Below are positions 3,372 through 18,323 of a DNA stretch of 52,753 nt, piece after piece; the first letter of the stretch is position 1, and each line of letters starts with the position of its first letter. The notes beneath the pieces are model-generated. The model worked only from the letters and a program-made list of their open reading frames with translations. It had not been told where the DNA came from and searched no databases. Source of the stretch: Thermoplasmatota archaeon (lineage in GTDB: Archaea; Thermoplasmatota; E2; DHVEG-1); assembly GCA_016927555.1 (NCBI GenBank), contig JAFGML010000002.1:1-52753 (forward strand), given 5' to 3'. A program made the position numbers and the translations under genes.

Positions 3372-6300
3372 TTACCACACTGAATACCAGAGGAGAGAAC
3401 CACCCTGTCCGATGAGATGTTCCACCGAGACGAGCTGATCGTAGCAGTCGACGCCAAATATTCGTGTGCCTCCACGAACCAAGGATCCTGGAGCAACAGC
3501 GTACATTCCAACACCAAACGCGTCTCGTCTACTCCACCCAGATCCATAGCGATAATTCACAATGTTCCCAAAGGTATTGACTGCATACAACCCAGGTATT
3601 GTTGTACTCCACATGTCATTGCCCCAGCAGAGCGACCCTGGGTGTACGTCCTTGTAATTCTCCAAGACGTGATAATACTTCAGAGTACCACTCTCCTGTC
3701 TGATGAGACACACAGTGCCCTGAGGAGTGACCCCATAGATTTCTTTATCACCAAGAATAAGTGATCCAGGGACTACTGTTCCCCAATCTGTCGTTCGCCT
3801 CTGCCACGCATTATTGACCCAACGATAATTAACGACAGTACCTTCTCGTGTGACAGCATATAACCCAGGGGCTGTTCCATCGCCGCTCCACATACTGTAG
3901 CCAAAGCAGAGTGATCCAGGCACAATGTCTGTATAGTCGCTCATCACTCGATAGTATTTTAAAAGGCCATTCTCCTGCCGAATCATACAGATACAGCCGG
4001 AGCTATCGACACCGAAGATGACGTTATTCCCATAGACGAGTGAGCCGGGAATGGGGTACCCGCCTTGTGCACTTCGTGCACACCAACCAGTGTTATAGTA
4101 GAGATTCACAGCGTTGTACCCATCTCGTGGGCCAGTCCCGTAGATGCCAGGGGCTGTGCCATTCCCTGAATTCATGGCTTTCCCAAGCACCAGAGAACCT
4201 GCAGCAACATTCACGATGCTGATAGGAGCAAACGTAATGATCCCATTATTCTTCCACGTGGTGAACACCTTCCCATTCTTGTTGACGCCATAGATGTTCT
4301 TATTGGAATCATCAGGGAACCCAGCGATGAGGGAGTAGGGGTGGAGTGCACCACTCCAATGCGGGATTGTCTGAACCTGTGTGGGGCTGTTGAGAGGATA
4401 GTGTCGAATGAGGTCGCCGTCTTGCTGGACTCTGTAGATACCATCCTCTGTGATAGCTAGCTGACCTGCACGCTGTGTCGCAAGGAACCCGTAGAGTTCA
4501 TTTTTCATAAACTCCATGTTCTCAAATGTTTCTCCAACATGTCCGATGCTATTCCCACTTTCAAAGTAGACATTATCAAATGGAGTCTTTGAGTAGAGCG
4601 CAGGGTCGGTGCCTGGTGCGTAATTCACATCTGTCGTATCAACGGCAAGGGCGCTGTAGGTCGGAATAAAACTATGATCTCCAAGAGAATACGTCATTGT
4701 TTTAATGAAGTGGATATTCCACGAGATGTGGGTTCCAAGTAAGTTGTTGATCCACTCAACAACGTTGATGACAGTGGCATCGTTGAAGGCATCAACAGCT
4801 GTTTTTATGCTGTCTCGTGTCCCCCCAGGCGCGAGGTCGAGGTACTTACACTGTGCTGCAGAACAGGTCACGGTGAGGTCTTTTCCGATTTCGAGGAGTG
4901 TTTGCCATCCAAACAAGAGGGTATGGATTTTTATTTTCACGCCAATGTATCCATCGAACACGGTACCTGGATGATCGGAGTAGGTTGCAATTTGTACTCC
5001 TGCTTCTGCTTTCAGTGGGAAGAGAGTCACACTTTTCATGTCGTCGACGTACCCATAATTCTCATAGGCATGTGTACTGAGACGGAGTCCAAAGCCGTTG
5101 CCACTAGCCACGGCAACGTTTCTGCACTGTTGTGGGAGTCCAAGAGCATTGACTTCAGTGTAGTAGCTATTGTACAACGGGTTTGGTTCGCACCAGTGCC
5201 ACACAAGATGGGGTGGTAATGGTGGTGGCATTTGTACGACGGTTGGGTATCGATTGACGGTGAGCATTTGACTTGCTGCGATGCTATTCAATCCGTTCAG
5301 CAGGTCTTGTGCTTCTCCACCAAAGGTCTTTGCAGCTAAGGTGACAAACCCCTGAAGTCCTAGGGGAATATTTGCTCCTTTAAACGGACCATCCAGGGCG
5401 ACAAACAACCCGACATGGTGATCCTCATAGTCCAGCTCAGCGGTTCGCAACGCGTACCGTGCGGTTTGCGTCCCCATGCTACCTGCCATGACCACAGCGC
5501 GTTGGCTTTCAAACCCAGGCGCCATCCACTCAGGGATGTTCTTGAAGGCTTCTCGAATCGCAAGTCCGTTCCGTTGGATGAAGTCGTTGCCCTGGGTGTA
5601 GTCAATGGAGATGAGGTCGAAGCCCATGTCAAGGAACTTCTGCATGCCACTGCCGAAATCGTACCAGATGTCATCTTGGGTCCTGTCGTTTAACACATCA
5701 AAACCATCGACGATGAACATGAGGTTCTTCAGCTGAACATCGTAGTTGCCTTGGACACCGGTGACTGTGCCTCCACTGGGATACACGCGTATGTTGATGC
5801 TTCCTTGTACTCCTATGTAAGGTATAGTTGCAGTCACTTGAGGTAGCTCTTTGTGATCAGGAATAATCAACGGTGCATACACAAATGAACCGTACATAAA
5901 AAATTGATTCCCATTGGCCATCCCTGAGAGACAGAACTGTACCATGTTGTTGGTATCACGCTTAAGATTGCTGACTGTGAATGGCTGATCGATGCGTATG
6001 TGTAGTGGTGTACTAGAGCCGCTGAAGGTGATGGTGAGATCATCAAAGATGATTGGTATTTTACTGTTGGTGAGAATGAGGGTCGACGGAATGATGAATT
6101 CGACGCTCGGTCCATAGACCTGAGGGGCAGTTACCGCAGCAGCAAAAAACGTGTGCGTATGAGAGACGGGTGTGTTATCTGTAGATCCAAGAAAATAGCC
6201 TTCTTGTGAGGTGACGCGACCATCGCCATACGCCTCTGGATCAATGCGATCATAGGTAATCACTGCAAGTGCAAGTGGTGTACGTTGGTCCTGCTCACGA

Positions 6301-6701
6301 ATGTGTTGAGCGGTTTCTTTGACCTGCGTGTAGCTTGGTAGCCGTTGCTGTATTGAGGATTGTACAAAGGCATAGTACACATTGTTAAAATCACTCGTCG
6401 TAAGGGTAGTAGAGCAATCCTTTTCGCACCCATCATTCTCCAAAATGATATCACCATAGAGCACCGCTCCTAAGTCAAACAGAATCCCTGATGAAAATTG
6501 ATTAAGGTCCATTTTGCTATACGCGGTGTACAACTGATCGAACACGGTTTGCTCATCTTCAATCATCTGTAGTTCTGGTGTTTCAACAAACGGTTCTTGT
6601 GGCTCTGATGCTGTACCTGTGGATGCAAACGTTGCGACAATGCAGAGGAGTGCACACGCCCAGGTCATGAGAATAGACATATTGTGTTTTGATTCGTTCA
6701 T
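3372..6701 (-). CDS. Large exported protein: alpha/beta-hydrolase-like domain plus C-terminal tachylectin-like repeats
   Basis: A 1109-residue exported protein. ATG 6701 is preceded by GAGG with a 9-nt gap; an in-frame TTG lies 9 nt further up. Residues about 10-32 form a signal peptide ending near ASTGTASE. A beta-rich N-terminal part follows. Residues about 325-690 look like an alpha/beta-hydrolase or lipase: FIVDGFD, ISIDYTQGNDF, then a nucleophile elbow MAGSMGTQTARYAL with Ser near 404, and ALDGPFKGANIP. From about 742 to the end there are tandem PGSL-containing repeats of alternating lengths (about 43 and 50 residues) rich in YGV/YAV, KYY and NYR, which resemble tachylectin-type beta-propeller blades. 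Function is probably a cell-surface or secreted esterase-like enzyme with a carbohydrate-binding propeller; the substrate is unknown. It is a single gene, convergent with crt. Confidence 0.75.
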   Translation of the reverse strand: MNESKHNMSILMTWACALLCIVATFASTGTASEPQEPFVETPELQMIEDEQTVFDQLYTAYSKMDLNQFSSGILFDLGAVLYGDIILENDGCEKDCSTTLTTSDFNNVYYAFVQSSIQQRLPSYTQVKETAQHIREQDQRTPLALAVITYDRIDPEAYGDGRVTSQEGYFLGSTDNTPVSHTHTFFAAAVTAPQVYGPSVEFIIPSTLILTNSKIPIIFDDLTITFSGSSTPLHIRIDQPFTVSNLKRDTNNMVQFCLSGMANGNQFFMYGSFVYAPLIIPDHKELPQVTATIPYIGVQGSINIRVYPSGGTVTGVQGNYDVQLKNLMFIVDGFDVLNDRTQDDIWYDFGSGMQKFLDMGFDLISIDYTQGNDFIQRNGLAIREAFKNIPEWMAPGFESQRAVVMAGSMGTQTARYALRTAELDYEDHHVGLFVALDGPFKGANIPLGLQGFVTLAAKTFGGEAQDLLNGLNSIAASQMLTVNRYPTVVQMPPPLPPHLVWHWCEPNPLYNSYYTEVNALGLPQQCRNVAVASGNGFGLRLSTHAYENYGYVDDMKSVTLFPLKAEAGVQIATYSDHPGTVFDGYIGVKIKIHTLLFGWQTLLEIGKDLTVTCSAAQCKYLDLAPGGTRDSIKTAVDAFNDATVINVVEWINNLLGTHISWNIHFIKTMTYSLGDHSFIPTYSALAVDTTDVNYAPGTDPALYSKTPFDNVYFESGNSIGHVGETFENMEFMKNELYGFLATQRAGQLAITEDGIYRVQQDGDLIRHYPLNSPTQVQTIPHWSGALHPYSLIAGFPDDSNKNIYGVNKNGKVFTTWKNNGIITFAPISIVNVAAGSLVLGKAMNSGNGTAPGIYGTGPRDGYNAVNLYYNTGWCARSAQGGYPIPGSLVYGNNVIFGVDSSGCICMIRQENGLLKYYRVMSDYTDIVPGSLCFGYSMWSGDGTAPGLYAVTREGTVVNYRWVNNAWQRRTTDWGTVVPGSLILGDKEIYGVTPQGTVCLIRQESGTLKYYHVLENYKDVHPGSLCWGNDMWSTTIPGLYAVNTFGNIVNYRYGSGWSRRDAFGVGMYAVAPGSLVRGGTRIFGVDCYDQLVSVEHLIGQGGSLLWYSVW

Positions 6702-6956
6702 TCGCTTCAACCTCTATTATTTCAGAGTGATTATTTTCTATGGCTTATAATTTTTATTTGGAAATATTTTACAGAAATAACATTGTTACAGGAGAGGATG
6801 GTATAGCACTCACATTTGTTGATTCCACTCTAGCTCATCGGTATAGGCAATAGGAGCTAGATGTGGACGAGGGGTCTACGAAAGGAAATAAAAGTCCTTC
6901 AAACGAGATTATTTATTTTTTTGGTAGTCATAAATGATACAATTATAGCAGATAAA

Positions 6957-11646: not shown

Positions 11647-11735
11647 TCTTTCTTTCCCTCAACCCCTTTTTTTCGTGTATTCCTCTGAGGAGAGGAACAG
11701 AAACCTTTATGTGACATGATTTGATTCCAAACCCC

Positions 11736-12875
11736 ATGAAACTCGAACTCAATGAGCAGCAGAAAATGATTCGGAACATGGTCCGAGAATTCGCTGAAAA
11801 AGAAATAGCACCAATCGCGGCAGAGTTAGATAAAAAAGGGGAGTATCCGACGAAAACCCTTGAAAAAATGGCGAAGCTCGGCCTCCTTGGCATTATCATC
11901 CCCACTGAGTACGGTGGTGCTGGTCTAGATGTCGTTACCTATGCAACTGTCATTGAAGAAATTTCTAGGAAATGTGCTTCAACAGGTGTCATCACCTCTG
12001 TGCATAACTCTCTTGTTGCATGGCCAATTATGAAGTATGGGACTGAGGAGCAGAAGAAGAAGTATTTACCACGACTCGCAACAGGTGAAAAAATTGGTGC
12101 CTTTGCTGGCACAGAACCAAACGCTGGCTCAGATCTTGGTGGGATGCAGACAACTGCAGTGCTGAAAGGGAATAAATACGTGATAAACGGCGATAAAACA
12201 TTTATCACCAGTGGCCCAAAAGCAGGGATTCTCATCGTTTTTGCAGTCACAGATAAGAGTGCTGCCTCAAAGGGAATCAGTGCGTTCATTGTTGAGAACA
12301 CCATGAAGGGATTCAAAGTTGGAAGTATTTTTGATAAAATGGGAATCAACGCAAACTTAGTGTCCGAACTCATCTTTGAAGATATGGAAGTGCCAAAAGA
12401 AAACCTGCTCGGTAAAGAAGGCGATGGATTCAAAATAGCACTCAGCACCTTAGATGGTGGACGTATAGGTATTGCTGCGCAGGCTGTTGGTATCGCACAG
12501 GCTGCTCTCGATGAAAGCATCACCTATGCCAAACAACGAGAGCAGTTTGGCAAGCCGATTGCCAAGTTCCAAGCGATTCAGTGGATGATTGCGGATATGG
12601 CGACTCGGATCCAAGCAGCACGGTTCTTGGTCTACAACGCAGCCTTTGTGAAAGATAAAGGAGAGCGGTTCTCCAAAGAAGCAGCCATGGCAAAACTGTA
12701 CGCCTCTGAGACCGCGATGGATGCAGTGATTAAAGCTGTACAGATTCATGGCGGCTATGGATACACGAAGGAGTACACGGTGGAGCGGTTGTTCCGCGAT
12801 GCGAAAATCACTGAGATCTACGAGGGCACCTCTGAGGTGCAACGCATGGTGATTGCCGCAAACCTGCTTGGATAA
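11736..12875 (+). CDS. Acyl-CoA dehydrogenase, short-chain (butyryl-CoA type)
   Basis: A 379-residue FAD enzyme that oxidises acyl-CoA to trans-2-enoyl-CoA and passes electrons to electron-transferring flavoprotein. Visible are SDLGGMQTTA with the FAD-contacting loop, INGDKTFITSG, the signature QAVGIAQAALDESITYA and the catalytic base Glu363 in YEGTSEVQ, the position used by short-chain enzymes. ATG 11736 fits a leaderless start from a TATA-like CCTTTATG; an in-frame TTG at 11721 is less likely. Acyl-CoA synthetase, EtfB and EtfA follow on the same strand, which gives this enzyme both its substrate source and its electron acceptor. Confidence 0.93.
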   Translation: MKLELNEQQKMIRNMVREFAEKEIAPIAAELDKKGEYPTKTLEKMAKLGLLGIIIPTEYGGAGLDVVTYATVIEEISRKCASTGVITSVHNSLVAWPIMKYGTEEQKKKYLPRLATGEKIGAFAGTEPNAGSDLGGMQTTAVLKGNKYVINGDKTFITSGPKAGILIVFAVTDKSAASKGISAFIVENTMKGFKVGSIFDKMGINANLVSELIFEDMEVPKENLLGKEGDGFKIALSTLDGGRIGIAAQAVGIAQAALDESITYAKQREQFGKPIAKFQAIQWMIADMATRIQAARFLVYNAAFVKDKGERFSKEAAMAKLYASETAMDAVIKAVQIHGGYGYTKEYTVERLFRDAKITEIYEGTSEVQRMVIAANLLG

Positions 12876-12920: not shown

Positions 12921-14549
12921 ATGGGGGAGTTTGACTACACACAAGCATGTAAACACTGGAAATGGAACATTCCGAAGCAGTACAACATCGGTGCTGATGT
13001 TGTGGATAAGCATGCTTCGTCGAAGAACAGGAATAAAGTGGCGCTCTACTGGGAGAATGCCGCTGGTCAGAACGAGAAGTACACCTTCGGGGACCTCAAG
13101 ACGCTGTCAAACAAGTTCGGGAATGCCCTGAAGACGTTGGGGTTGAAACGAGGGGATCGGTTCTTAATCCGCCTGCCCAACATCCCTGCGTTTCAGATCT
13201 CTTTTCTGGGTGGTGTCAAAATCGGCGCAGTCCCCATTCCCTCTAGTGTGATGTTCCGTGAACATGAGGTGGAGTATCGTATCAATGACAGTAGTGCGAA
13301 AGCAGTAATCACCACTCCACGTTTTGCCAAGGAAGTCAATGCGATTAAAGACAGGTGTAAGACCCTCAAGCACATCATCATGGTAGGTGACGCAGCACAC
13401 GACGGACTCTCGTACGATACGCTGATGAAGGATGCATCACCACACCTGAGGGTTACAGCAACAAAAAGCACTGATGTCGCGTTCTTCTGCTACACCTCAG
13501 GGACGACAGGCAACCCAAAGGGAGCAGTGCATCTCCATCAATGGGTGCCTGGCAATGACCCGAGCGTGTTGTTCTGGCAGGATGGAAAAGAGACGGACAT
13601 CGTTGCCCATACCGGTGACTTAAACTGGATTTATCCTCTGGGAAACGGGTTTCTCTACACCTGGCGCTGGGGCATCTCAACCCTGGTGTACGATGGGAAA
13701 TTCGACGCGGCGCAGTGGTTCCAGCTCTTGGAGAAGTACCGGGTGACCAACCTGGCATCTGTGCCGACAGCCTATCGGATGTTTCTGACAGTCAAAGACG
13801 CGGAGAAAACCTATGACCTCTCAGCGCTCCGCCATTGCATCTCCGCTGGCGAACCATTGAACCCCGGGGTCATCAAGGAGTGGAAACGGCGCTTCGGGGT
13901 GGATGCCTACGATGGGATCGGCATGACCGAGGTCATGGTGTACCTCTCAAACATGAGAGGCATGCCCCTTAAACTTGGATCCTGTGGGAAGCCTCAACCC
14001 GGCCACAGCTGTGCACTGCTCAGTGACGATGGTCGTCCTGTGAAGCAGGGGGACACCGGGGTGCTGGCTGTGAGGAGAAACGACCCAGGGTTGTTCAGGG
14101 AGTACTGGAAGAAACCTGAGAAAACCACGGAGAGCTTTAAAGGCGACTGGTTCCTCAGCGGTGACGTCCTCTATCAGGATGAGGAAGGGTACTACTGGTT
14201 CAGCGGCCGCAATGACGACCTCATTAAAGCCAGCGGGTATCGCATCTCACCGTTTGAGGTGGAATCCGCCATCATCTCCTATCCTGCTGTGTTGGAGTGT
14301 GCCGTAATCGCCAGTCCAGACAAAATGCGGGGGACCATCATCAAAGCCTACGTGGTGCTCCGGGACAAACAACACGGGTCCGACCAGTTAGCCAAGGATA
14401 TCCAGGAACATACCAAGAAAGTAGCAGCTCCGTACAAGTACCCACGGGAGGTTGAGTTTGTCACCGAGCTTCCGAAGACCCAGAGCGGGAAGATAAAACG
14501 GAAGCAGTTGCGGGAACTGGAACAACAGAAAAAAGGAGGTAAACCATGA
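12921..14549 (+). CDS. AMP-forming acyl-CoA synthetase (medium-chain/ACSM type)
   Basis: A 542-residue adenylate-forming ligase that activates a carboxylic acid to acyl-CoA at the cost of ATP to AMP and PPi. It shows the AMP-binding P-loop YTSGTTGNPKG, the GIGMTEV motif, the hinge FSGRNDDLIKASGYRISP and the C-terminal catalytic lysine in LPKTQSGKIKRK. The overall pattern is closer to medium-chain and aromatic acyl ligases than to acetyl-CoA synthetase; the true substrate (butyrate, hydroxybutyrate, branched or aromatic acid) is open. AGGTGAAG stands 6 nt before ATG. Its stop overlaps the etfB start. The membrane pyrophosphatase at 34.3 kb would conserve energy from the PPi released. Confidence 0.9.
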   Translation: MGEFDYTQACKHWKWNIPKQYNIGADVVDKHASSKNRNKVALYWENAAGQNEKYTFGDLKTLSNKFGNALKTLGLKRGDRFLIRLPNIPAFQISFLGGVKIGAVPIPSSVMFREHEVEYRINDSSAKAVITTPRFAKEVNAIKDRCKTLKHIIMVGDAAHDGLSYDTLMKDASPHLRVTATKSTDVAFFCYTSGTTGNPKGAVHLHQWVPGNDPSVLFWQDGKETDIVAHTGDLNWIYPLGNGFLYTWRWGISTLVYDGKFDAAQWFQLLEKYRVTNLASVPTAYRMFLTVKDAEKTYDLSALRHCISAGEPLNPGVIKEWKRRFGVDAYDGIGMTEVMVYLSNMRGMPLKLGSCGKPQPGHSCALLSDDGRPVKQGDTGVLAVRRNDPGLFREYWKKPEKTTESFKGDWFLSGDVLYQDEEGYYWFSGRNDDLIKASGYRISPFEVESAIISYPAVLECAVIASPDKMRGTIIKAYVVLRDKQHGSDQLAKDIQEHTKKVAAPYKYPREVEFVTELPKTQSGKIKRKQLRELEQQKKGGKP

Positions 14550-15310
14550 ACATCATCGTGTGTGCAAAGCAGGTTGTAGATGTCTCTGAAATAAAGATAG
14601 ATGCCTCGACAAAAAAACCGATTCTCGCAGGCATACCTCAGAAAATCAGCGACATTGATAAGAATGCATTAGAAGAGGCCATTAAAGTAAAAGAGAAGAC
14701 CGGGGGTAAAATCACGGTGATCACCGTCGGAACTCCAGATGCAAAGGAACGCATCAAGGAGCTGCTCGCGATGGGTGCTGATGAGGGCGTACTCATCCCT
14801 CAGCCGCAACACGCGGATTACTACGTGATTGCCCATCTGCTCGCAGCTGCGGTAAAAAAAATAGGCAGCTACGACATCATCCTCTGCGGGGAAGCCTCCA
14901 TTGATATGTTCTCAGGGCAGATGGGGCCGCGGCTCGCAGGGCTGCTGAACATCCCACAAATCACCTATGCACAGAAGATAACCGTGGAGAAAGACACACT
15001 AGTGTCTGAGCGAAACCTAGGGGACAAGGCGGTCACCATTGAAACCACGTACCCCGTACTGCTCACCGTCACCAAGGAAATTAATCAACCGCGACTCCCA
15101 AGCTTAATGCAGATTCTCTCCGCAGCAAACAAACCGATACATGAGTGGTCTGTCGCAGACCTTGCGTCTGCTGATGTTACCCCAAAAGTGCACACCATTG
15201 ATGTCAAAGGCGTCCCCATGCAGCGCAAGAACATCATCTTCCAAGATGATGTGGACCAGTCGGTGACAAAACTGGTTGACGAGCTTGCGAAAGCAGGAGT
15301 GCTGAGGTGA
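14546..15310 (+). CDS. etfB: Electron transfer flavoprotein, beta subunit
   Basis: A 254-residue EtfB that partners EtfA to accept electrons from the acyl-CoA dehydrogenase. Family segments include the N-terminal VCAKQVVDV, NALEEAIKVKE, a GADEGVLI loop and the AMP/FAD-site stretch GEASIDMFSGQMGP followed by LPSLMQI. The start overlaps the synthetase stop by four bases (ATGA) and a strong AAAGGAGG precedes it. Whether this is a bifurcating Etf (two FADs, ferredoxin reduction) cannot be decided by eye. Confidence 0.93.
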   Translation: MNIIVCAKQVVDVSEIKIDASTKKPILAGIPQKISDIDKNALEEAIKVKEKTGGKITVITVGTPDAKERIKELLAMGADEGVLIPQPQHADYYVIAHLLAAAVKKIGSYDIILCGEASIDMFSGQMGPRLAGLLNIPQITYAQKITVEKDTLVSERNLGDKAVTIETTYPVLLTVTKEINQPRLPSLMQILSAANKPIHEWSVADLASADVTPKVHTIDVKGVPMQRKNIIFQDDVDQSVTKLVDELAKAGVLR

Positions 15311-16266
15311 GCACCATGGTACTTGTGTACTCAGATGAGAAGAAACTCACCTTGGAGTTGCTCCACAAAGCACATGACCTCGCGAAAGAGCAGCAGAAGA
15401 AAACCATCGCTGTCTGCATCGGCCATGAGGCTGATGCACAAGACTTTCTTGCCCATGGTGCTGATGTCGCGGTAGTCGTGCAGACTCCTCTGAAAGAGTT
15501 CAAAGCCGAGGAGTACGCCACCATCCTTCACCACCTGATCAAAGAGCATAGCAATGAGACCGTGCTCATCGGCTCAAATAAAAATGGAAAGGAACTTGCT
15601 GGCCGGCTCGCTGCCCAGCTGCAGGCCGGCTGCATCATGGATTGCACCAACGTCTACCTGAAGGATAAAAAACTCACCACAGAGCGCATGGTGTACTCTG
15701 GGAACGCGATCGCGGTGGAGCAGTTCAGCTCCCATCCACAGATTATCACTATCCCTCCCAAAGTGTTTGATCCTCTCCCAAAGAACGAGCATCACAAAGG
15801 AGAAGTCGTTAAAAAGACCATCGATGCTGGGCAGTCTGCATCAAAGATCCTGAAGGTCCAGGAGATGAAGACAGAGGGCATCAATGTGGAGGATGCCGAG
15901 ATCATTGTCTCCTGCGGCAGGGGATTCAAGAAGAAGGAAGACATCACGTTAGTCAGCCAGCTCGCGGATGTGTTGAAGGGCAGGACTGTCGGCTGCTCCC
16001 GGCCTATCGCGGCGGATCTGAAGTGGCTCTCTGAGGACCATTGGATTGGGTTGTCTGGTCATAAGGTCAAACCAAAACTCTACGTCGCCTGCGGGATCTC
16101 CGGGCAGATCCAGCATATTGCTGGGATGCGAGACTCCGGGGTGATTGTTGCCATCAACAAGGACCCTGAGGCGTTGATCTTCAAGTCCGCTGACTACGGC
16201 ATTGTGGGGGATCTCTACCAAGTCCTCCCCAAGTTAACCAATGCGATCAAAGACAAGATGGGGTAG
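15307..16266 (+). CDS. etfA: Electron transfer flavoprotein, alpha subunit
   Basis: A 319-residue EtfA. The C-terminal FAD domain has the family sequence CGRGFKKKEDI, then GCSRPIAAD, DHWIGLSGHKVKPKLYVACGISG, QHIAGM and AINKDPEALIF with ADYGIVGDL. The frame opens with GTG 15307, which overlaps the etfB stop as GTGA; ATG 15316 is an alternative that costs three residues. It is the last gene of the acd-acs-etfB-etfA operon. Confidence 0.93.
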   Translation: MSTMVLVYSDEKKLTLELLHKAHDLAKEQQKKTIAVCIGHEADAQDFLAHGADVAVVVQTPLKEFKAEEYATILHHLIKEHSNETVLIGSNKNGKELAGRLAAQLQAGCIMDCTNVYLKDKKLTTERMVYSGNAIAVEQFSSHPQIITIPPKVFDPLPKNEHHKGEVVKKTIDAGQSASKILKVQEMKTEGINVEDAEIIVSCGRGFKKKEDITLVSQLADVLKGRTVGCSRPIAADLKWLSEDHWIGLSGHKVKPKLYVACGISGQIQHIAGMRDSGVIVAINKDPEALIFKSADYGIVGDLYQVLPKLTNAIKDKMG

Positions 16267-16319: not shown

Positions 16320-16862
16320 ATGGTGAACATGATGAGTAGAACAGGAGATAAAAAATTACTGTCAGAGATACCCAGAGAAAAAATCCCAGAGTACATCTTC
16401 ATGCAGCTGCGGAACCTCTGGGCTGTCGATGGACTCTACTACCTCGGCATTGAAGAAGCCTATGGGACAGAGGTGGCGACAGCCATCGATGCCCACGTCT
16501 GGGAGGTGATGGGGAAAATCGAGGCACGCAAGCTCAAAGAATTCCTTGGGATCACCTCTACGGATATCCCCTCCATGATGACAGCGTTACAGTACTCGGC
16601 ATGGGGCATGGATCTTGAGGATAAAGAAATCACTGTAAAGAAGGATCATGCGATGATCCGGAACGTCAAGTGTCGGGTGCAGAACACACGGAGGCAGAAA
16701 GGCTTACCTGAGTTTGGGTGTAAACCCGTGCGCTTCGGATTCCTCAAAGCCTTTGCAAAAGAGTTTAACCCAGAGATCGAGGTGACCTGCACTGTATGTC
16801 CACCCGATGCACACCCAGAGACACTCTGGTGTCAATGGGAGTTTTCAATTAAGGAGAAATGA
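16320..16862 (+). CDS. Small conserved protein with Cys-Pro-Pro-Asp motif (DUF6125-like)
   Basis: A 180-residue soluble protein. The helical N-terminal half has LWAVDGLYYLGIEEAYG and AIDAHVWEVMGKIEA, and the C-terminal half has CTVCPPDAHPE followed by WCQWEF, with further cysteines at NVKCRVQ and FGCKP. This resembles an archaeal/bacterial family I know as DUF6125, related to the 2-amino-thiazoline-4-carboxylate hydrolase fold; the match is from memory. No function is established. It ends 3 nt before the AbfD/HpaB-like gene, so the two are almost certainly co-translated and may act together. The cysteines could bind a metal. Confidence 0.7.
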   Translation: MVNMMSRTGDKKLLSEIPREKIPEYIFMQLRNLWAVDGLYYLGIEEAYGTEVATAIDAHVWEVMGKIEARKLKEFLGITSTDIPSMMTALQYSAWGMDLEDKEITVKKDHAMIRNVKCRVQNTRRQKGLPEFGCKPVRFGFLKAFAKEFNPEIEVTCTVCPPDAHPETLWCQWEFSIKEK

Positions 16863-16865
16863 GCC

Positions 16866-18323
16866 ATGAAAACCGCAAAAGAATACAAGGCCAGCCTTCA
16901 GAAGATGCGTCCAAACATCTACAAGTTCGGGGAGCTCATCAAAGATGTCACCACGCATCCTGCGACGAAACGAACCGTTGAAGGCCATGCGCAGATCTTT
17001 GAGGCTGCACACAAACCAGAGTACAAAGACATGTTAACGACAACATCGCATCTTTCCGGCAAGCCGATTTCCCGGTACCTCTCTATCATTCAGAGTCCAG
17101 AGGACATGATAGCGAATGTCCGCATGAAACGGCTTATGTTCAATCTCACCGGGACGTGCACAGGCGGTCGGTGTGCCGGGTTTAACGCACTCAATGCGAT
17201 GTGGGCGACAACCTACGACATGGACCATGTTCTCGAGACATCGTACCATGAGCGTCTGAAGAAATGGCTTACCGATGCACAGCACCGAGACATCACCCTG
17301 GCTGGTGCGTTGACAGACCCGAAGGGGGATCGCTCAAAGACACCGTCGCAGCAACGGGACCCTGACCTCAGTCTGCGTGTCGTGGAACAACGGGATGACG
17401 GCGTGGTGATCCGGGGGGCCAAAGTCATGATCTGTGGTGTTGCTGCCTCCAATGAGATCTTTCTGATGCCTGGGACCGGCTACAAAGAACCAGATAAAGC
17501 GTACGCGTTCTCCTGTGCTCTGCCGAGGGATGCTGAGAATCTGACGATCATTGAGACCCGCAGGCCGAGTGATACTCGTGAGCTGGAGGACGGGTTTGAC
17601 GCACCAGTGGACATTGGTGGGATCACCCAGTCGTACCTCTTGTTTGAGGACGTGTTTGTTCCCACGGAGCGCATCTTTCTCAATGGGGAGTACGCGTATT
17701 CGTTACCCGCTGTGATGACCTTCGTAGCGTCGTACCGCTCTGCGATAGGAGGCTGTGTGGCAGGTCAAGGTGACGTCATGGTCGGTGCAGCAGCACTCAT
17801 GGCACGAGCCAATGGACTGTCTGAGAAGGTGTTCCGTGAGAAGATAACGCAAATGATCATCAACAATGAGACGACCTTTGGCATGGGCATCGCAGCAGGT
17901 GTCCTTGGCACGAAGCACCCCTCCGGCATGTGGATTCCCAATACCTTGCTTTCGAATGTCAACAAAGTCCATGTCGGGACGCTCCCCTATGACACCAAGA
18001 GAATCACTCAGGACATCGCCGGGGGAATCGCAGAGACAGGGTGTCTTCCTTCGTGTAAGGATATCAACGATCCCAGGTACGGCAAGCTGCTGCAGAAGTA
18101 CCTTCAAGCGAACTGTACTGGGGAGACACGGGCGAAAATCGCTCGTCTCATTGAATGGCTCACGATAGGCAGTGGCGTACCAGGCTGCATGCATGGTGGT
18201 GGATCACCGGATGGTGCCAAGCTGGTGATTAATGCAACAACGGACATGGCTCATAACATTGAGCTGGCGAAACGACTGGCGAACATCACAGAGAACATTC
18301 AGGTAGAACCCAAGAAGAAATAG
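16866..18323 (+). CDS. 4-hydroxybutyryl-CoA dehydratase / HpaB superfamily protein with non-canonical active site
   Basis: A 485-residue member of the flavin superfamily of 4-hydroxyphenylacetate 3-hydroxylase and 4-hydroxybutyryl-CoA dehydratase (AbfD). Overall similarity to AbfD is clear: GALTDPKGDR, VVIRGAKVM, LLFEDVFVPTERIFLNGEY, QDIAGGIAETG and MHGGGSP. In clostridial AbfD, Cys99, Cys103, His292 and Cys299 hold a [4Fe-4S] cluster. Here the first pair is Cys98 and Cys103 with one residue more between them, the histidine position is Tyr290, Cys297 is kept, and the positions of Tyr296, Lys300, Glu257 and Glu455 appear as Ile294, Val298, Gln and Gly. The alignment is by eye against a remembered sequence. 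The enzyme may therefore not be a true 4-hydroxybutyryl-CoA dehydratase. It sits 3 nt behind the Cys-rich small protein and close to acyl-CoA/Etf genes. Confidence 0.8.
   Translation: MKTAKEYKASLQKMRPNIYKFGELIKDVTTHPATKRTVEGHAQIFEAAHKPEYKDMLTTTSHLSGKPISRYLSIIQSPEDMIANVRMKRLMFNLTGTCTGGRCAGFNALNAMWATTYDMDHVLETSYHERLKKWLTDAQHRDITLAGALTDPKGDRSKTPSQQRDPDLSLRVVEQRDDGVVIRGAKVMICGVAASNEIFLMPGTGYKEPDKAYAFSCALPRDAENLTIIETRRPSDTRELEDGFDAPVDIGGITQSYLLFEDVFVPTERIFLNGEYAYSLPAVMTFVASYRSAIGGCVAGQGDVMVGAAALMARANGLSEKVFREKITQMIINNETTFGMGIAAGVLGTKHPSGMWIPNTLLSNVNKVHVGTLPYDTKRITQDIAGGIAETGCLPSCKDINDPRYGKLLQKYLQANCTGETRAKIARLIEWLTIGSGVPGCMHGGGSPDGAKLVINATTDMAHNIELAKRLANITENIQVEPKKK

Follow-up and report, generated by a model that had tools for sequence, protein, structure and literature searches.

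A sister clade of 4-hydroxybutyryl-CoA dehydratase with substituted ligand and catalytic residues and four invariant cysteines

The variant gene and its neighbourhood

The window analysed here is a stretch of 52,753 nucleotides from a Thermoplasmatota archaeon (contig JAFGML010000002.1). Its forward strand carries, in this order, genes for an acyl-CoA dehydrogenase, an acyl-CoA synthetase, EtfB, EtfA, a DUF6125 protein and a relative of the Clostridium aminobutyricum 4-hydroxybutyryl-CoA (4HB-CoA) dehydratase AbfD, which is called the variant below:

11721..12875, + strand: acyl-CoA dehydrogenase (ACAD); best NCBIfam match acryloyl-CoA reductase AcrC, 541 against a cut-off of 640
12921..14549, + strand: acyl-CoA synthetase; best NCBIfam match MbcS, below its cut-off
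14546..15310, + strand: EtfB, electron transfer flavoprotein beta subunit (profile matches)
15307..16266, + strand: EtfA, electron transfer flavoprotein alpha subunit (profile matches)
16320..16862, + strand: DUF6125 (PF19620) protein, directly upstream of the variant; five cysteines (118, 134, 157, 160, 171) invariant across the 50 sequences compared
16866..18323, + strand: AbfD-sister variant gene; 485 aa, HpaB_N and HpaB domains

A methylmalonyl-CoA mutase gene and a cob(I)alamin adenosyltransferase-like gene, the latter read from the sequence, are on the opposite strand. The left end of the window encodes a 3-hydroxyacyl-CoA dehydrogenase and a crotonase. An ORF of 1112 aa with an apparent signal peptide and repeats occupies 3372-6710 on the reverse strand.

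The variant ORF begins with ATG and is stop-free over 485 aa. The gene is under strong purifying selection, with dN values of 0.09-0.13 and saturated synonymous sites between orthologues at 82-85% identity, and dN/dS is 0.022 in the single measurable pair. The HpaB_N/HpaB fold spans the full length of the protein. In phmmer searches of the PDB the variant matches AbfD (1u8v) over its full length with 327 bits (E 1.5e-96), which confirms the end-to-end alignment with 4HB-CoA dehydratase that an earlier note on this DNA had made by eye. Nitrosopumilus maritimus 4HBD (6vjr) is also matched over its full length (E 6.4e-93), while the HpaB monooxygenases rank behind both (E 5.6e-31 or worse) and the scores against the NCBIfam HpaB equivalogs are far below the cut-offs (TIGR02309, 145.7 versus 480.2; TIGR02310, 75.9 versus 885.2). 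The top Foldseek match of the AlphaFold model is 1u8v, in support of the fold; the model is weak in its C-terminal half, with pLDDT <50 at 371-392, and cannot place Cys393.

The earlier note had described the surroundings as an Etf/acyl-CoA neighbourhood. The Etf, ACAD and acyl-CoA synthetase genes are indeed there, but adjacency to Etf is limited to one archaeal family (f1), within which the ACAD/ACS/EtfAB/DUF6125 arrangement recurs (L034, L043, L051, L057); it is missing at the variant loci of Zixibacteria and of other archaeal families. A clade-wide conserved operon was rejected because the gene surroundings are not the same across archaeal families and Zixibacteria. Redox genes seen near the variant at individual loci elsewhere in the clade include ferredoxin with AFOR, flavin reductase, nitroreductase and EB_dh. 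At Zixibacteria loci L048, L049, L135, L137-L139 and L141, an ethylbenzene-dehydrogenase-like (EB_dh) gene often lies immediately upstream of the variant, and a GAF-SpoIIE phosphatase gene is often nearby.

The DUF6125 protein is a candidate partner of the variant. Its gene adjoins the variant in several families but only in part of the clade, and the two co-occur even when unlinked. Within the phylum, the variant is present in 43 of 49 DUF6125-positive genomes versus 16 of 341 negative ones (Fisher p 3e-37, a value that ignores kinship); outside the window's order the counts, which also ignore kinship, are 11 of 12 versus 11 of 326. The predicted DUF6125 model (pLDDT 87.5) has a weak resemblance to aromatic-sensor (V4R-like), TRAPP/Bet3 and H-NOX folds, with a best E of 3.5e-3. 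A literature search on DUF6125 (PF19620) found no paper.

Ligand and active-site positions across the clade

In AbfD, the removal of unactivated protons and the hydroxyl group is aided by an iron that has a histidine ligand and by Glu, Tyr and Lys residues close by. We take the cluster ligands to be Cys99, Cys103, Cys299 and His292, and the active-site residues to be Glu257, Tyr296, Lys300 and Glu455. The corresponding features of the variant gene, all on the + strand, are:

17157..17174, +: C98-T-G-G-R-C103, cluster-cysteine pair, one residue longer than AbfD CFQRC; both Cys in 87/87
17433..17435, +: Cys190 at the AbfD Thr190 position; C 76, A 9, S 2 of 87
17628..17630, +: Gln255 at the AbfD Glu257 position (pairwise and multiple alignments)
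17733..17735, +: Tyr290, replacing the AbfD cluster ligand His292 (alignments)
17754..17759, +: Cys297 (the AbfD ligand Cys299, kept) and Val298 (AbfD Lys300, lost) (alignments)
18039..18044, +: inserted Gly392-Cys393, without counterpart in AbfD and N. maritimus 4HBD; 87/87 in the clade, 0/25 outside
18186..18188, +: Cys441 at AbfD Ser456, adjoining the lost Glu455; C 84, T 2 (87 sequences)

Relatives were collected from the window's order, its phylum, GTDB contigs and Zixibacteria; the comparison set comprises 87 distinct near-full-length clade members and 25 other superfamily members. The pairwise alignment to 1u8v places C98 at C99, C103 at C103, Y290 at H292, I294 at Y296, C297 at C299 and V298 at K300, and the multiple alignments place Q255 at E257 and a Gly at E455, with four residues absent before MHG. 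Val298 is found in 87 of the 87 clade members, Gln255 in 85 (Glu in 2), Tyr290 in 85 (Glu in 2, His in none) and Ile294 in 83 (Met in 4). The AbfD active-site set Glu257, Tyr296, Lys300 and Glu455 is thus replaced across the clade by Q (E in 2), I/M, V and G. All the replacements read by eye in the earlier note hold in these alignments and are fixed in the clade at the frequencies just given; the first cysteine pair is indeed one residue wider (CxxxC to CxxxxC), and the alignments restored neither His nor CxxxC in 87/87. Its statement that only Cys297 and the general fold remain went too far, since Cys98, Cys103, Arg102 (Leu in one member), Arg291, the TDxKG[DN]R motif and His443 are also kept.

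The basal clade members L075 and L076 have Glu at 255 and Glu in place of Tyr at 290, and their variant genes adjoin a divergent ferredoxin and an AFOR gene. Their state may represent an early step in the change of ligand.

All three AbfD cluster cysteines persist in the variant as Cys98, Cys103 and Cys297. Together with Cys393 they are each invariant in 87/87 clade members, while the remaining five cysteines of the window protein (190, 217, 397, 417, 441) vary. Cys190, Cys397, Cys417 and Cys441 were rejected as a fourth ligand for this variability. Cys393 lies on a two-residue insertion, which the earlier note overlooked, in the loop GG-x-x-E-[TV]-G-C-x-P (mostly ETGC[LMI]PS), and its presence coincides with the absence of His292 over the 87 clade members and 25 outside sequences. 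Among these 25 (archaea, Zixibacteria, plasmids, PDB) the CTGGRC motif and the Gly-Cys insertion are found in none, and no intermediate with His292 and Cys393, or with CTGGRC and His, occurs. A ligand swap would be expected to leave this pairing of a lost His292 with a fourth invariant Cys; as a single evolutionary event without independent replicates, the pairing is suggestive. The implication of the earlier note that the cluster is essentially lost finds no support, since the four invariant cysteines point to a re-ligated cluster.

In an ML tree made with the trait columns removed, the variant sequences form one clade (SH-aLRT 100), which is sister to the AbfD/4HBD clade and lies outside the characterised 4HBDs. 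A match is found in 37 of 52 genomes of the window's order, all 37 carrying a clade member, and in 70 of 133 genomes of the Zixibacteria set, mostly at 61-69% identity. Since the Zixibacteria variants nest within those of the archaea (Thermoplasmatota), the variant probably reached Zixibacteria by transfer from archaea. Phyla beyond these two were scanned once, for exact peptide patterns; no relative was found in the viral contigs searched, and nothing above 60% identity in the plasmids searched. One genome (G014) has a canonical-like copy as its best match (40% identity) as well as variant fragments near contig ends, a co-presence that hints at separate functions, with assembly contamination also possible.

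In two assemblies (L057, 6675-6690; L054, 975-985), single-base frameshifts interrupt the variant gene, probably through sequencing errors or recent decay. Programmed frameshifting was rejected, as both cases look ordinary (a C run; a one-base shift). HpaB-superfamily groups from Thermoplasmatota contigs and Rhodococcus plasmids (L147-L153, L161-L163) have a His-Arg pair (HRF/HRY) and a TDxKG motif without any paired cluster cysteines, and form a further uncharacterised CoA-type branch.

Proposed function and alternatives

From these residue patterns we infer, with a probability of roughly 0.5, that the variant belongs to the CoA-thioester branch and is an FAD enzyme with a re-ligated all-cysteine [4Fe-4S] cluster, without the dehydratase acid/base residues and with a redox role. 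That it is not a 4HB-CoA dehydratase is highly probable, the all-cysteine [4Fe-4S] cluster is rather likely, and the redox role is tentative. In the predicted site, the new Cys393, carried by the Gly-Cys insertion in the loop that follows the conserved GG, would replace the lost His292, and the cluster would be held by Cys98, Cys103, Cys297 and Cys393. Such a four-cysteine cluster would have no free iron site for the substrate hydroxyl; its saturation, together with the loss of Glu257, Tyr296, Lys300, Glu455 and His292, should abolish 4HB-CoA dehydration. A CoA thioester is the likely substrate, since the variant keeps TDxKG[DN]R, a motif whose assignment to CoA substrates comes from context: it is common to AbfD and to members whose genes neighbour those for an acyl-CoA synthetase or a CoA-transferase. 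The HpaB hydroxylases carry NPQxNR at this site, which the variant lacks.

The ligand and acid/base losses, the saturated cluster if Cys393 ligates, and the CoA-type motif favour an FAD/[4Fe-4S] acyl-CoA redox enzyme. Its most likely role would be electron transfer between acyl-CoA-bound FAD and an outside partner, which may be Etf and/or the DUF6125 protein in f1 archaea and other redox proteins elsewhere. The activity would be that of an FAD/[4Fe-4S] acyl-CoA oxidoreductase, or a redox-gated isomerase, in short-chain acyl-CoA metabolism. A reaction different from that of AbfD, as suggested earlier, is likely, given that the substitutions are confirmed and clade-fixed.

The variant might instead be a radical dehydratase or Delta-isomerase for another acyl-CoA (e.g. 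5-hydroxyacyl, branched or aryl), with cluster and FAD as in AbfD and Tyr290/Glu290 as an oxygen ligand or base. The retention of the fold, of three of the four AbfD ligands, of Arg291 and of the CoA-type motif agrees with this, as does the restriction of position 290 to Tyr and Glu, since either residue could serve as a ligand or a base. However, AbfD positions 257, 296, 300 and 455 are mostly replaced by residues incapable of acid/base work, and the new invariant Cys393 is left unexplained, so that we regard such an enzyme as plausible but on the unlikely side.

Automatic annotation and the published Thermoprofundales DC/4-HB (4-hydroxybutyrate) cycle (PMC6461988) would make the variant a true 4HB-CoA dehydratase with unusual ligands. 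Even though AbfD and N. maritimus 4HBD are the closest characterised proteins and the genome has crotonase and 3-hydroxyacyl-CoA dehydrogenase, this is very improbable: the His ligand and the acid/base residues are gone across 87 sequences, the variant is sister to the 4HBD clade and not inside it, the three steps leading to 4HB-CoA are reported missing (PMC6461988), and G014 holds both kinds of sequence. Least probable is an HpaB-type flavin-dependent aromatic hydroxylase with leftover cysteines, for which the HpaB Pfam domains speak; the TIGR02309 and TIGR02310 scores given above, the absence of NPQxNR, the four invariant cysteines and the grouping with AbfD are all against it.

If the cluster is re-ligated as predicted, the clade would be a natural experiment in cluster re-ligation. 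A bolder proposal, which we consider a long shot, is that one ligand swap turned a flavoenzyme of the radical dehydratase family into an FAD/all-cysteine [4Fe-4S] electron-transfer enzyme that joins acyl-CoA oxidation (via Etf and DUF6125) to low-potential carriers in anaerobes. If true, Etf electrons would have a new route, one that parallels ETF:quinone oxidoreductase without being related to it.

Marker use and comparison with known systems

4HB-CoA dehydratase is a marker for two autotrophic CO2-fixation cycles. It is scored as a pathway marker by K14534 in PMC12400630 and by EC 4.2.1.120 in PMC9802188, and the Thermoprofundales cycle has as its marker the SG8-52-3 'candidate 4-hydroxybutyryl-CoA dehydratase' (PMC6461988). 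Since the only HpaB-family protein in the deposited SG8-52-3 assembly is a variant, with 78% identity to the window protein, the published candidate is very probably the variant, as far as that assembly shows. Annotation of the variant as 4HB-CoA dehydratase is, judged by its residues, very probably wrong, and the misannotation predicted in the earlier note has very probably already happened here. Because clade members match the dehydratase by sequence but do not carry its residues for catalysis and cluster ligation, surveys that rely on this marker gene can assign carbon fixation to organisms that perhaps lack it. Thermoprofundales are a concrete case, and the variant is carried by most genomes of the window's order and by around half of those searched in Zixibacteria.

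AbfD (1u8v) shares with the variant its fold, a full-length alignment, the equivalents of Cys99, Cys103 and Cys299, Arg293 and the TDPKGDR motif. The variant differs in the replacement of His292 by Tyr, Tyr296 by Ile, Lys300 by Val, Glu257 by Gln, Glu455 by Gly and Thr190 by Cys, in its CxxxxC spacing, in the extra Gly-Cys insertion and in forming a separate sister clade. N. maritimus 4HBD (6vjr) also aligns over its full length and has the three cysteine positions in common with the variant, but the losses are the same as relative to AbfD and the Gly-Cys insertion is missing from 6vjr. HpaB 4-hydroxyphenylacetate 3-monooxygenase shares the HpaB_N/HpaB Pfam domains, but is without the cysteines and the CoA-type motif of the variant, which in turn scores far under the HpaB equivalog cut-offs.
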